From: Nitrosomonas sp. HPC101
GTDB taxonomy: Bacteria; Pseudomonadota; Gammaproteobacteria; Burkholderiales; Nitrosomonadaceae
Direction of reading: 5' to 3'
Assembly: GCF_009833125.1 (NCBI RefSeq)
Contig: NZ_QRCC01000014.1
Coordinates: 62,001 to 126,000 of the forward strand
DNA length: 64,000 bases
Part shown: in pieces, positions 52,642 through 61,479 of the stretch
Numbering within the stretch: the first letter of the stretch is position 1
Layout: each line of letters opens with the position of its first letter
The notes under the pieces: model-generated
The model's input: the letters and a program-made list of their open reading frames with translations, nothing else
What the model was told of the DNA's origin: nothing
Databases searched by the model: none
Translations under genes and position numbers: made by a program

Positions 52642-54185
52642 ATGACCAGCACCCAGCAACGTGCCGAACTGCAACGCCGAATCTGGCAAATCGCCAACGA
52701 TGTTCGTGGTGCCGTCGATGGCTGGGATTTCAAGCAATACGTGCTCGGCACCCTGTTCTATCGCTTTATCAGCGAAAATTTTGCGGTATACATTGAAGGC
52801 GGTGACGACAGCATCCACTATGCAAAGCTGCCCGATGACGTCATCACCCCGGAAATCAAGGACGACGCCATCAAGTCCAAGGGCTATTTCATCTACCCCA
52901 GCCAGCTGTTCGCCAATATTGCCAAAGGCGCGAATAACAACGACAGCCTGAATACCGACCTGGCTACCATCTTTGCCGCTATTGAGGCATCTGCTAACGG
53001 TTACCTCTCCGAGCAGGACATCAAAGGCCTGTTTGCTGACTTCGACACCACCAGCAACCGCTTGGGCAATACCGTCAAAGACAAGAATGCGCGTCTGGCC
53101 GCCGTGCTCAAGGGGGTGGCCGAACTTGACTTTGGCGGCTTCGACACCAGTCGCATTGATCTGTTCGGCGATGCCTACGAATTCCTGATCTCCAACTACG
53201 CGGCTAACGCCGGCAAGTCCGGCGGCGAGTTCTTCACCCCGCAGCATGTCTCCAAGCTGATCGCCCAGCTCGCCATGCACCAGCAAACCAGCGTCAACAA
53301 GATCTACGACCCGGCCTGCGGTTCAGGTTCGCTGCTGTTGCAAGCCAAAAGCAGTTCGACGCGCACATCATCGAAGAGGGCTTCTTCGGGCAGGAAATCA
53401 ACCACACCACCTACAACCTGGCGCGGATGAACATGTTCCTGCACAACATCAACTACGACAAGTTCAACATCCAGCTTGGCAACACTCTGATCAATCCGCA
53501 CTTTGGCGATGAAAAACCGTTTGATGCCATCGTCTCTAACCCACCCTATTCAGTGAAGTGGATCGGCAGCGACGACCCCACCTTGATCAACGACGACCGC
53601 TTTGCCCCGGCCGGCGTGCTCGCCCCCAAATCCAAGGCCGACTTTGCCTTTGTGCTGCACGCGCTCAGCTACCTCTCCAGCAAGGGCCGCGCCGCTATCG
53701 TCTGCTTCCCCGGCATCTTCTACCGGGGTGGCGCCGAGCAGAAAATCCGCCAATATCTGGTGGACAACAGCTACGTCGAAACCGTGATTGCGCTTGCGCC
53801 CAACCTGTTCTACGGCACCACCATTGCCGTGAACATTCTGGTGCTGTCCAAACACAAAACCGACACCACCACCCAGTTCATCGACGCCAGTGCGCTGTTC
53901 AAGAAGGAAACCAATAACAACGTGCTGCTGGATTCCCACATCGAGCAAATCATGGCGGTGTTCGACAGCAAGGCCAATGTCGAGTACTTTGCCCAGTCCG
54001 TGCCCCTGGAGCAGGTAGCCGCCAACGACTACAACCTGTCGGTCAGCAGCTATGTGGAAGCCGAAGATACCCGTGAAGTGGTCGATATTGTCCAGCTCAA
54101 TGCCGAGCTGAAAACCACCGTCGCCAGGATCGACCAGCTACGCAAAGAGATTGATGCCATCATCACCGAGATTGGAGAGGCTTGA
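52642..54185 (+). pseudogene. hsdM: Type I restriction methyltransferase subunit (HsdM), broken by a one-base frameshift
   Basis: The first 235 residues form a normal type IC HsdM start (AELQRRIWQIANDVRGAVDGWDFKQYVLGTLFYRFISENF, GEFFTPQHVSKLIAQLA, motif I DPACGSGSLLLQA). At 53347-53350 a run of four A replaces the five needed to read AKKQFDAHIIEEGFFGQEIN. The frame shifts and stops at 53430. The rest continues in the other frame (GQEINHTTYNLARMNMFLHNINYDKF, catalytic NPPY at about 53537, and a helical end). A restart at 53427 would lack the SAM-binding motif. Unless the frameshift is a sequencing error, the methylase is inactive. Confidence 0.9.
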
Positions 54186-54188
54186 TCC

Positions 54189-58388: not shown

Positions 58389-61300
58389 CTACAAAACCAT
58401 TGCCGAATCGAACAGCTTCATTATCCTGGATAAGTACGTCAAGAAATGGCAGGCGAACGAAAGCTATCAAAGCGAATATGACCTGGAGCGGGAGTTCATT
58501 CAGGATTTGCAAAATCAGGGTTATGAATACCTGCCCGGCCTGAATACGCCCGAAGCCTTGCTGACCAATGTGCGCGTGCAACTGCAAACGCTCAATAACG
58601 TACAGTTTGCCGATGGCGAATGGTTGCGTTTCGTGGACGTTTTTCTGGACAAGCCCAGCGATGGCATTGTCGAGAAAACCTGCAAGATTCATAACGATTA
58701 CATTCACGACTTTGTGTTTGACGATGGCCGTCTCCAGAACATCACCCTGCTGGATAAAAAGAACATCGCCCGCAACAAGGTGCAGGTGATCAAACAGTTC
58801 GAGCAGACAGGCAGCCACGCCAGCCGCTACGACGTGACCATTCTGGTCAATGGTTTGCCACTGGTGCAGGTGGAACTGAAAAAACGCGGCGTGGCGATTC
58901 GCGAAGCCTTCAATCAGGTGCACCGCTACAGCAAGGAGAGCTTTAACAGCACACAGTCCCTGTTCAAGTATTTGCAGCTGTTTGTGATCTCCAACGGCAC
59001 CGACAGCCGCTACTTCGCCAACACCACCCAGCGCAACAAGCACAGCTTCGACTTCACCATGCACTGGGCGAAGGCGGACAACAGCCTGATCAAGGATCTG
59101 AAGGATTTTACCGCCACTTTTTTCCAGAAGCACACCCTGCTCAATGTGCTGCTGCACTATTCGGTGTTTGATGACAGCAACACGCTGCTGGTGATGCGCC
59201 CGTACCAGATTGCCGCCACGGAGCGCATTCTGTGGAAGATCAAGAGCAGCCATCAGGCCAGGAACTGGAGCAACACCGAAAGCGGTGGCTTCATCTGGCA
59301 CACCACCGGCAGCGGCAAGACGCTGACCAGTTTCAAGGCGGCGCGGCTCGCCACCGAATTGGATTTCATCGACAAGGTGTTTTTCGTGGTGGACCGCAAG
59401 GATCTGGACTACCAGACCATGAAGGAATACCAGCGCTTTTCACCGGACAGTGTGAACGGCTCGGACAGCACCGCGGGCCTGAAGCGCAATCTGGACAAGG
59501 ACGACAACAAGATCGTCGTCACCACCATCCAGAAGCTCAACAACCTGATGAAGAGCGAGGCGGACTTGTCCATCTACGGCAAGCAGGTGGTGTTCATTTT
59601 TGATGAGTGCCACCGCAGCCAGTTTGGCGAAGCACAGAAGAATCTGAAGAAGAAATTCAAAAAGTTCTATCAGTTTGGCTTCACTGGTACGCCGATCTTC
59701 CCGGAGAACGCCTTGGGCGCCGAAACCACCGCCAGCGTGTTTGGTCGTGAACTGCATTCGTATGTGATTACCGATGCCATTCGCGATGAAAAGGTACTGA
59801 AGTTCAAGGTGGACTACAACGACGTGCACCCGCAGTTCAAAGCGATCGAAACCGAGCAGGATGAGAAGAAGCTGAGCGCGGCGGAGAACAGGCAAGCCCT
59901 GCTGCACCCGGATCGCATCCGCGAGATCACCCAATACATCCTGAACAACTACCGGCAGAAAACTCACCGCCTGCATACGGGCAACAAGGGTTTCAATGCC
60001 ATGTTCGCGGTCAGCAGCGTGGATGCCGCCAAGCTGTACTATGAATGCTTCAAGACCTTGCAGAAAGACAGCGACAAACCACTAAGGGTAGCCACCATCT
60101 TCTCGTTTGCCGCCAACGAGGAACAGGATGCGATTGGCGACATCCAGGATGAGAGTTTTGATATATCGGCCATGAACAGCAGCGCCAAAGAGTTTTTGGG
60201 CGCGGCCATTGCGGATTACAACGCGTTGTTCAAAACCAACTTCAGCGTGGACAGCAAGGGCTTCCAGAACTACTACCGCGATCTGGCCAAGCAGGTCAAA
60301 GCCAGGGAAATCGACTTGTTGATCATGGTAGGCATGTTCCTGACCGGCTTTGATGCCCCCACGCTGAACACTTTATTCGTGGACAAGAACCTGCGTTACC
60401 ATGGGTTGATGCAGGCCTATTCGCGCACCAACCGCATTTTTAACGCCACAAAAGCCTTTGGCAACATCGTCACCTTCCGCGACCTGGAGCAGGCGACCAT
60501 TGATGCCATCACCTTGTTCGGTGACAAGAACACCAGGAACGTGGTGCTGGAGAAAAGCTACACCGAGTACATGGCGGGTTTTACCGATGTGGTGACTGGT
60601 GAGGCGCGGCGTGGCTTCATGGATGTGGTGCAGGAACTGGAAGCACGCTTCCCTGACCCAGCAGCCATCGAGAAGGAGGCCGACAAGAAGGCTTTCGCCA
60701 AGCTGTTTGGCGAGTATTTACGCGTCGAAAACGTGCTGCAAAACTATGATGAGTTCACCAGCCTGAAGGCGCTGCAAAGCGTCGATATGACCGACCCGGT
60801 GGCGGTTGAAGTGTTCAAGGCCAAACACTATCTGAGCAACGATGATCTGACCGCGTTGCAAGCCATCACGTTGCCGGCCGAGCGCAAGATTCAGGATTAC
60901 CGTTCGACCTATAACGATGTGCGCGACTGGCTGCGCCGTGAGAAGGCGGGGGCCGAGAAAGAGAAATCCACCATCGACTGGGATGACGTGGTGTTTGAGG
61001 TGGACTTGCTCAAGTCGCAGGAAATCAATCTGGATTACATCCTGGAACTGATCTTCGAGCACAACAAGAAGACCAAAAGCAAATCGGATCTGGTGGATGA
61101 GGTGCGGCGCGTGATTCGCGCCAGTCTGGGCAATCGCGCGAAAGAGAGTCTGGTGGTGGACTTTATCAATCAGACCGATCTGGACACGATTGGCGACAAG
61201 GCCAGCGTGATCGACGCCTTCTTCAGCTTTGCCCAGGCAGAACAACTGCGTGAAGCGCAGGAGCTGGTTACCACCGAGAACCTCAACGCAGAGGCCGCCA

Positions 61301-61479
61301 GGCGATACATCACCACCTCACTCAAGCGGGAGTTTGCCAGCGACAGCGGCACTGAGCTCAATGCCGTGCTGCCCAGAATGAGCCCGTTGAACCCGCAATA
61401 CCCGACCAAAAAGCAAAGCGTTTTTCAGAAAATTGCCGCTTTTGTTGAGAAGTTTAAGGGCGTGGGAGGGCACGTCTAG
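58381..61479 (+). CDS. hsdR: Type I restriction enzyme R subunit (HsdR), type IC-like
   Basis: The 1032-residue motor-nuclease starts MTDYKTIAESNSFIILDKYV (ATG at 58381; an in-frame ATG at 58360 lies inside the upstream gene). The nuclease core is D151 and E165-x-K167 in SRYDVTILVNGLPLVQVELK. Helicase motifs are TGSGKT (309-314), DECH (408-411), FTGTPIF, GMFLTGFDAPTLNTLFVDKNL and QAYSRTNRIF. The C-terminus matches the EcoR124-type R subunit. It is only distantly similar to the HsdR at 18291. The stop at 61477-61479 overlaps the GTG of the next frame. Confidence 0.95.
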   Translation: MTDYKTIAESNSFIILDKYVKKWQANESYQSEYDLEREFIQDLQNQGYEYLPGLNTPEALLTNVRVQLQTLNNVQFADGEWLRFVDVFLDKPSDGIVEKTCKIHNDYIHDFVFDDGRLQNITLLDKKNIARNKVQVIKQFEQTGSHASRYDVTILVNGLPLVQVELKKRGVAIREAFNQVHRYSKESFNSTQSLFKYLQLFVISNGTDSRYFANTTQRNKHSFDFTMHWAKADNSLIKDLKDFTATFFQKHTLLNVLLHYSVFDDSNTLLVMRPYQIAATERILWKIKSSHQARNWSNTESGGFIWHTTGSGKTLTSFKAARLATELDFIDKVFFVVDRKDLDYQTMKEYQRFSPDSVNGSDSTAGLKRNLDKDDNKIVVTTIQKLNNLMKSEADLSIYGKQVVFIFDECHRSQFGEAQKNLKKKFKKFYQFGFTGTPIFPENALGAETTASVFGRELHSYVITDAIRDEKVLKFKVDYNDVHPQFKAIETEQDEKKLSAAENRQALLHPDRIREITQYILNNYRQKTHRLHTGNKGFNAMFAVSSVDAAKLYYECFKTLQKDSDKPLRVATIFSFAANEEQDAIGDIQDESFDISAMNSSAKEFLGAAIADYNALFKTNFSVDSKGFQNYYRDLAKQVKAREIDLLIMVGMFLTGFDAPTLNTLFVDKNLRYHGLMQAYSRTNRIFNATKAFGNIVTFRDLEQATIDAITLFGDKNTRNVVLEKSYTEYMAGFTDVVTGEARRGFMDVVQELEARFPDPAAIEKEADKKAFAKLFGEYLRVENVLQNYDEFTSLKALQSVDMTDPVAVEVFKAKHYLSNDDLTALQAITLPAERKIQDYRSTYNDVRDWLRREKAGAEKEKSTIDWDDVVFEVDLLKSQEINLDYILELIFEHNKKTKSKSDLVDEVRRVIRASLGNRAKESLVVDFINQTDLDTIGDKASVIDAFFSFAQAEQLREAQELVTTENLNAEAARRYITTSLKREFASDSGTELNAVLPRMSPLNPQYPTKKQSVFQKIAAFVEKFKGVGGHV

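Follow-up and report, generated by a model that had tools for sequence, protein, structure and literature searches.

Defence genes embedded in type I restriction-modification (R-M) loci are reportedly the subject of a 2024 preprint by Payne et al., under the term 'guilt-by-embedding'. We have analysed a locus with such an organization at positions 52642-61479 (+ strand) of a stretch of 64,000 nucleotides (nt) from Nitrosomonas sp. HPC101 (contig NZ_QRCC01000014.1, positions 62,001 to 126,000; hereafter the window), which contains a homologue of the anticodon nuclease gene prrC together with two genes of the DUF1016 family. The closest described system is the prr locus of E. coli, whose components EcoprrI and PrrC are treated as known in passages of PMC3874165 and PMC12707154. 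The parts of the literature drawn on here describe further examples: R-M operons in which a PrrC-like gene is accompanied by RhuM, or an RloC-like gene by DOC, for which a multi-level defence was proposed (PMC3710099); TgvAB, inside a type I operon of V. cholerae, which protects without HsdR restriction activity (PMC11411939); DarTG2, which sits between hsdS and hsdR (PMC12255303); and PrrC itself, often embedded in type I loci at one hotspot of Pseudomonas islands (PMC12629846).

As deduced from open reading frames (ORFs) and domain profiles, the gene order in the window is hsdM-DUF1016-hsdS-prrC-DUF1016-hsdR, just as had been stated in an earlier reading of this sequence (the original prediction). 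It is probably a prr-type IC locus with a PrrC homologue, and its DUF1016 genes (DUF1016a and DUF1016b, in this order) are likely exchangeable defence cargo in two slots, and not guards of PrrC, because both slots are used by many unrelated genes. The locus resembles E. coli prr in its type IC order hsdM-hsdS-prrC-hsdR, in its catalytic triad and in the sequence of PrrC, which is 66% identical to the annotated anticodon nuclease of E. coli strain B1 (locus L093 of our collection). Unlike the prr locus, it has a DUF1016 gene in each gap, a frameshifted hsdM and a prrC that does not abut hsdR; in L093 the end of prrC overlaps hsdR by 8 nt, whereas in the window it is DUF1016b that does so.

The prrC gene (56397..57572, + strand) is encoded between hsdS and hsdR, from which it is separated by DUF1016b, and its product of 391 amino acids (aa) matches the PADLOC PrrC model PDLC02360 over residues 3-390 (E=1.7e-142). 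The protein has ABC-type NTPase motifs (Walker A and D-loop; GTGKT and FIDDPVSSLDE), without the long coiled-coil/zinc-hook insert of RloC, and carries the stretch YYNAFTEDLFYWDND, which we take to be the PrrC box. Residues R316, E320 and H352 align with residues 320, 324 and 356 of the L093 anticodon nuclease and are invariant in all 12 aligned sequences, the window included; the proposal that they correspond to the PrrC catalytic set is thus borne out by the very alignment suggested as a means of refuting it. A passage of PMC2610378 numbers the E. coli triad as R320/E324/H356, and names the PrrC box without specifying its letters. These comparisons support the assignment of the window protein as a genuine member of the PrrC family in a prr-type type IC locus, and cleavage of tRNA-Lys, with latency imposed by its own R-M enzyme, is predicted for it by analogy. 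Searches of PDB by sequence yielded no usable chain match for PrrC or DUF1016.

To place the locus among its relatives, genome contigs were scanned with PrrC, which retrieved 112 relatives, and the best 80 loci were kept. The order hsdM-hsdS-prrC-hsdR was found in 71 of the 72 complete loci, the exception being the pseudogenised L041; the presence of prrC in this set is due to selection, while the gene order is not, and the E. coli loci L093-L095 show the same order. The hsdM/hsdS gap holds an extra gene in 13 of these 71 loci, and the hsdS/hsdR gap contains a gene or piece of at least 60 aa besides prrC in 17 of 71, nearly always behind prrC (in L036 and L062 the extra ORF sits between hsdS and prrC). 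Representatives of this cargo belong to seven kinds of Pfam families (RhuM, DUF1016/YhcG, Bro-N, Fic, KilA-N, AAA_14/DUF4143 and RelA_SpoT), although the RelA_SpoT match is scarcely over the cut-off. DUF1016 was detected by ORF in 6 of the 71 loci (L021, L030, L036, L046, L071 and L074), in L030 and L074 as fragments. Together with the relics described below and with L099, L104, L111, L116 and L117, these cases lead us to reject the idea that DUF1016 was inserted in this strain alone; the survey proposed to refute the original prediction shows instead that they recur at such loci. Within a single type IC locus of a Spartobacteria metagenome-assembled genome (L036, 5309-15279), we observed KilA-N, DUF1016, prrC and RhuM genes all together. 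In the genus of the window, four loci with a different hsd family (L099-L102) have the prrC order R-S-cargo-prrC-M, except that L100 is R-S-prrC-RhuM-M, and their cargo is DUF1016 (in L099, R-S-DUF1016-prrC-M), RhuM (carried by L100 and L101), RhuM plus Fic, or an unnamed 277-aa gene.

A survey that selects for prrC cannot tell whether DUF1016 is tied to it, so a control set was collected using HsdM of L002 as bait in 369, 398, 390 and 346 genomes (partly overlapping sets); 50 loci were fetched at an identity of at least 54%, of which 41 were complete, 20 with prrC and 21 without it. In these loci neither DUF1016 (1/20 with prrC vs. 3/21 without, p=0.6) nor RhuM in the hsdS/hsdR slot, pieces counted (9/20 vs. 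7/21, p=0.5), is enriched with prrC. The co-occurrence that had been proposed as a check was therefore not seen as an enrichment, and the claim that PrrC is guarded by DUF1016, or specifically tied to it, finds no support, the same gaps also holding unrelated genes; on this control set we rejected DUF1016 as a PrrC guard. The layout nearest to that of the window is L104 (M-DUF1016-S-prrC-RhuM-R), and the plasmid locus L096 (M-DUF1016-S-RhuM-R) has the slots without prrC.

The DUF1016 proteins could nevertheless be dedicated partners of PrrC and the Hsd complex, in a guarded three-layer system of restriction, tRNA cleavage and DUF1016 nuclease. Such a role would agree with the presence of DUF1016 near prrC in several loci, including L104 and, with another hsd family in the same genus, L099, and with the multi-level scheme of PMC3710099 for PrrC-like and RloC-like genes and their respective partners, RhuM and DOC. 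We find it decidedly unlikely, because DUF1016 is not enriched with prrC and is present in loci devoid of prrC (L096, L111, L116 and L117), because DUF1016 genes located behind prrC are decayed in six of seven cases, and because the embedded V. cholerae system acts without HsdR restriction activity, according to a passage of PMC11411939. In its general form, the three-layer idea was already in print for RhuM and Fic/DOC partners of PrrC-like or RloC-like genes (PMC3710099).

The two DUF1016 proteins of the window differ with respect to the DUF1016/YhcG PDDEXK family, which PADLOC lists as candidate PDC-S02. DUF1016a (54189..55226, + strand; 345 aa), in the hsdM/hsdS slot, matches PDC-S02 and contains DUF1016_N and YhcG_C with the D-(D/E)xK residues of the PD-(D/E)XK core kept as D/D/K. 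DUF1016b (57624..58388, + strand; 254 aa), in the prrC/hsdR slot, retains DUF1016_N but matches only positions 2-57 of the 157 of the YhcG_C profile, and is without the nuclease core. Over 91% of its length it shows 87% identity to full-length relatives, which have about 349 aa; from these it differs by the in-frame loss of ca. 95 residues that include the core, after which the tail SQLPTVQEIE...KPND continues. Its description as 'nuclease-less' was thus correct as to the core, but the change is an internal in-frame deletion and the C-terminal tail is still there. This 254-aa form is a single sequence recorded in four contigs.

Decay of DUF1016 differs between the slots. Translated searches of the hsdM-hsdR interval in 114 loci, for relics outside intact genes, identified DUF1016b relics in L024, L030 and L074, RhuM relics in L034, L051 and L151 (the latter without prrC), the end of a split RhuM in L125 and a Bro-N relic in L123, and among these 114 loci no DUF1016 relic in the hsdM/hsdS gap. 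In L002 (Pseudomonas dryadis) and L003 (Stutzerimonas stutzeri), where RhuM takes the homologous position, comparison of the DNA shows the spacer between prrC and RhuM to be a shrunken DUF1016b gene (98.7 bits, E 3e-25, vs. at most 25.6 bits in 100 shuffles for L002; 53.6 bits, E 1e-11, vs. at most 22.9 bits in 100 shuffles for L003); window positions 57575-57682, comprising the spacer and the first part of DUF1016b, are 80.9% identical to the L002 spacer. DUF1016b relics thus occupy the prrC/hsdR gap of five other loci. Behind hsdM, the D-(D/E)-K residues are kept in 8 of 8 genes (window DUF1016a, L021, L071, L096, L104, L111, L115 and L116; the L115 contig stops before hsdS), while behind prrC the core is kept in only one of seven (L046), being lost in the window, L002, L003, L024, L030 and L074. 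Without L115, the comparison is 7/7 vs. 1/7 (Fisher p=0.005), and the result is unchanged if L002 and L003 are taken as one event. The core is also kept in L117, which has no prrC, and in L036, where DUF1016 precedes prrC.

Among the best 120 relatives of DUF1016b, 10 are coreless (DUF1016b counted), of which eight have the tail in frame and two have none; the eight show seven distinct deletion intervals, six besides that of DUF1016b, and in relative P0229 the C-terminal part is reduced to about the last 13 residues. If the frame were random, about one third of deletions would be in frame, but, given the preference of databases for open frames, the excess is no more than suggestive. These repeated in-frame deletions, which drop the core and spare the N-terminal domain and the tail, along with the conservation of the retained part noted above, would fit a nuclease-less DUF1016b that is itself selected, the nuclease having been removed repeatedly since the short form is useful; DUF1016_N alone would then act, e.g. 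by capping full-length DUF1016, by inhibiting it in a dominant manner, or by binding Hsd as an adaptor. We consider this unlikely, given that this gap holds plain DUF1016b relics in other loci (L002, L003, L024, L030 and L074), as ordinary decay predicts, that the bias of databases towards open frames applies here as well, and that coupling to hsdR accounts for the retention of frame and tail without any protein function.

Evidence for such coupling comes from the junctions. The DUF1016b/hsdR border is an 8-nt overlap, ATGACTGA (58381..58388, + strand), provided that the start of hsdR is the ATG at 58381 (hsdR 58381..61479, + strand; the mechanical ORF begins at the GTG at 58360). The start codon of hsdR lies in the DUF1016b tail, and a GAGG about 10 nt upstream is likewise inside DUF1016b. 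Since DUF1016b ends in this element over the start of hsdR, the inserted gene carries the hsdR junction. The window prrC ends in ATGATTGA, an element of the same kind as the prrC/hsdR overlaps of other loci, and is followed by a spacer of 51 nt (57573..57623, + strand) and DUF1016b; where prrC directly precedes hsdR, the commonest junction is an overlap of 8 nt (31/69), followed by one of 4 nt (11/69). It would thus seem that the hsdR junction is now held by the inserted DUF1016b and that prrC retains its apparent former junction. The remaining borders are a 3-nt gap (hsdM/DUF1016a), a 4-nt overlap (DUF1016a/hsdS) and a 1-nt gap (hsdS/prrC); the claim that the DUF1016 genes overlap their neighbours thus holds for their downstream borders (4 and 8 nt), while the upstream ones are gaps of 3 and 51 nt. 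Across loci, 41 of 56 junctions have the cargo 3' end overlapping the hsd gene that follows, compared to 20 of 55 upstream junctions (Fisher p=1.3e-4), and overlaps of 4 or 8 nt occur in 37/56 vs. 15/55 (Fisher p=5.7e-5), in a statistic that counts related loci as independent and in which the start nearest to the stop was chosen on both sides.

Translation might therefore pass from the cargo to the following hsd gene through the stop/start overlap. DUF1016b would have lost its nuclease while keeping frame and tail because an in-frame deletion leaves HsdR translation intact, and this constraint at the DNA level would explain the retention of the tail without any protein function. A stronger version, in which the slot before hsdR is coupled and in-frame deletions repeatedly strip DUF1016 behind prrC to a conserved and functional DUF1016_N 'shell', appears to us quite unlikely. 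This shell would be a nuclease-dead regulator or cap, either restraining the full-length protein encoded in the hsdM/hsdS slot or docking effectors on the Hsd complex.

The original prediction left unmentioned that hsdM is not intact. It consists of two ORFs in different frames, which match positions 1-242 and 269-515 of one HsdM model of 515 positions: an N-terminal part (52642..53430, + strand; 262 aa) with HsdM_N and the methylase motif DPACGSG, and a C-terminal part (53427..54185, + strand; 252 aa) with NPPY, so that neither half carries both motifs. Alignment with the intact HsdM of L002 places the loss of frame near residue 237; other intact relatives exist, e.g. in L007 and L104. The locus therefore does not hold the intact hsdM, hsdS and hsdR of a type IC R-M system, and whether any of the defence layers operates as proposed is doubtful for this strain. 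The frameshift could be real or an assembly error and, in either case, is one event. A shared or programmed break point was considered and rejected, because the hsdM genes of L111, L142, L143, L144 and the window break at different residues. These four control loci are all without prrC, and so is L149, in which a short C-terminal piece of hsdM is split off. In L061, found by PrrC, hsdM and hsdR are broken at many places beside an open prrC, probably because of poor assembly.

The damage to hsdM also raises the possibility that the whole locus is a dying R-M island, with hsdM frameshifted, DUF1016b gutted and the other genes not yet decayed. Two of the six genes are visibly damaged, and hsdM is broken, at other places, in the four other hsdM-chosen loci just mentioned. 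On the other hand, hsdS (55223..56395, + strand; 390 aa, the specificity subunit), prrC, DUF1016a and hsdR, which is of the IC family by its EcoR124_C domain, are full length and retain their domains, both hsdS and hsdR being open throughout, and the hsdM frameshift is one event and perhaps an assembly error. A dying island is thus a serious possibility, although we would not favour it.

From work with E. coli, the Hsd proteins of an intact locus would hold PrrC latent and stable until a phage anti-restriction factor released it to cut tRNA-Lys, and DUF1016a could be an independent, phage-directed nuclease translated from the same message. With a broken hsdM, this copy would neither methylate nor restrict. 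A passage of PMC3014915 reports that PrrC produced in E. coli without the remaining prr genes is active, with a half-life of less than 1 min, and that Hsd proteins stabilise it; because of this short life, a PrrC that lies idle in the window appears likelier than one set loose. How an apparently intact prrC persists beside a broken hsdM is a question raised by this locus. In L102 (7402-13813), we also observed an intact prrC with its triad, a split hsdM, and hsdR in pieces only.

Besides the limits of the junction statistic, several points weigh against considering the DUF1016 genes as simple exchangeable cargo. The hsdM-to-cargo junctions also overlap often (12/21). The retention of the core in 8 of 8 genes behind hsdM vs. 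1 of 7 behind prrC is not what simple neutral cargo would predict. In the control loci, the hsdM/hsdS slot is filled in 1/20 with prrC vs. 8/21 without it (p=0.02), so that the slots are not entirely independent of prrC, whose presence may go with less cargo at that site; the window combines the two. A weak association between DUF1016 and prrC is also possible, given control counts as small as 1 and 3. Protection by TgvAB is stronger when the entire type I cluster is present than with TgvAB by itself (a passage of PMC11411939), so that cargo and host system may help each other. The hsdM frameshift could be an assembly error. In L102, of the same genus, hsdM is likewise split next to an intact prrC, which is odd if PrrC depends on Hsd control. 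The slots and their other occupants, the conserved residues of PrrC, the hsdM frameshift and the loss of the DUF1016b core are all read directly from sequences.

With respect to published systems, those of PMC3710099 have, like the window, a further gene beside prrC in an R-M operon, although both window slots hold DUF1016 and neither contains the RhuM or Fic/DOC that define them; DUF1016 is absent from the main text of that paper. TgvAB and DarTG2 are likewise second defence systems within hsd operons, of different gene families, and to these cases our analysis adds a rule for the slots and one cargo in decay. That type I loci can house second-line genes, PrrC beside RhuM or Fic/DOC among them, is thus already published, and the DUF1016 locus would be a variant of this theme. 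The claim that the combination had not been described holds in so far as we recognised no paper on DUF1016 with PrrC, in a literature search that was not aimed at this pair of words and that left preprints and most subscription journals outside its scope, but embedding beside PrrC had been published for RhuM and Fic/DOC. The literature passages covered contain no antiphage test of full or coreless DUF1016.

If the cargo is exchangeable, a testable rule follows. Type IC loci would offer two slots in which one cargo gene can replace another, while the 3' end of the occupant tends to remain joined to the hsd gene downstream. The rule predicts candidate second-line defences (RhuM, Fic, Bro-N, KilA-N and DUF1016), why nuclease-dead versions hold their frame, and where decayed cargo may be sought; it also cautions that adjacency to prrC is no proof of a guard relation. 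In our opinion, what deserves to be followed is this rule, together with the coupled ends of the cargo and the recurrent loss of the nuclease from DUF1016 genes behind prrC.

We also examined where else relatives of the DUF1016 genes occur. Using the DUF1016b relative P0122 as query, the sole match above 64% identity in 399 genomes of the same order was the window's own gene, 469 plasmid records were all below 60% identity, and viral contigs gave two distant loci only. In 29 other loci from the search of the same order, the 54 flanking ORFs included N6_Mtase (6), Methylase_S (5) and SWI2_SNF2 (5), a count in which many flanks are clipped by the ends of short loci; hsd neighbours of DUF1016 genes are thus frequent, but far from universal. 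Elsewhere in the genome of the window, contig C1 contains one more relative of hsdM and one more DUF1016 gene (221587-223104 and 115597-116298, respectively). In the window, the ca. 500 bp between ssb and hsdM (52124-52641) have no + strand ORF of at least 80 aa, and a decayed gene is possible there. Another type I locus of the window (18291-27835, - strand), with hsdR, hsdS and hsdM (795 aa), also contains an Orf5/HEC-06-type gene (25142-26899) and a gene for a WYL protein (26918-27835), that is, further extra defence genes beside hsd.

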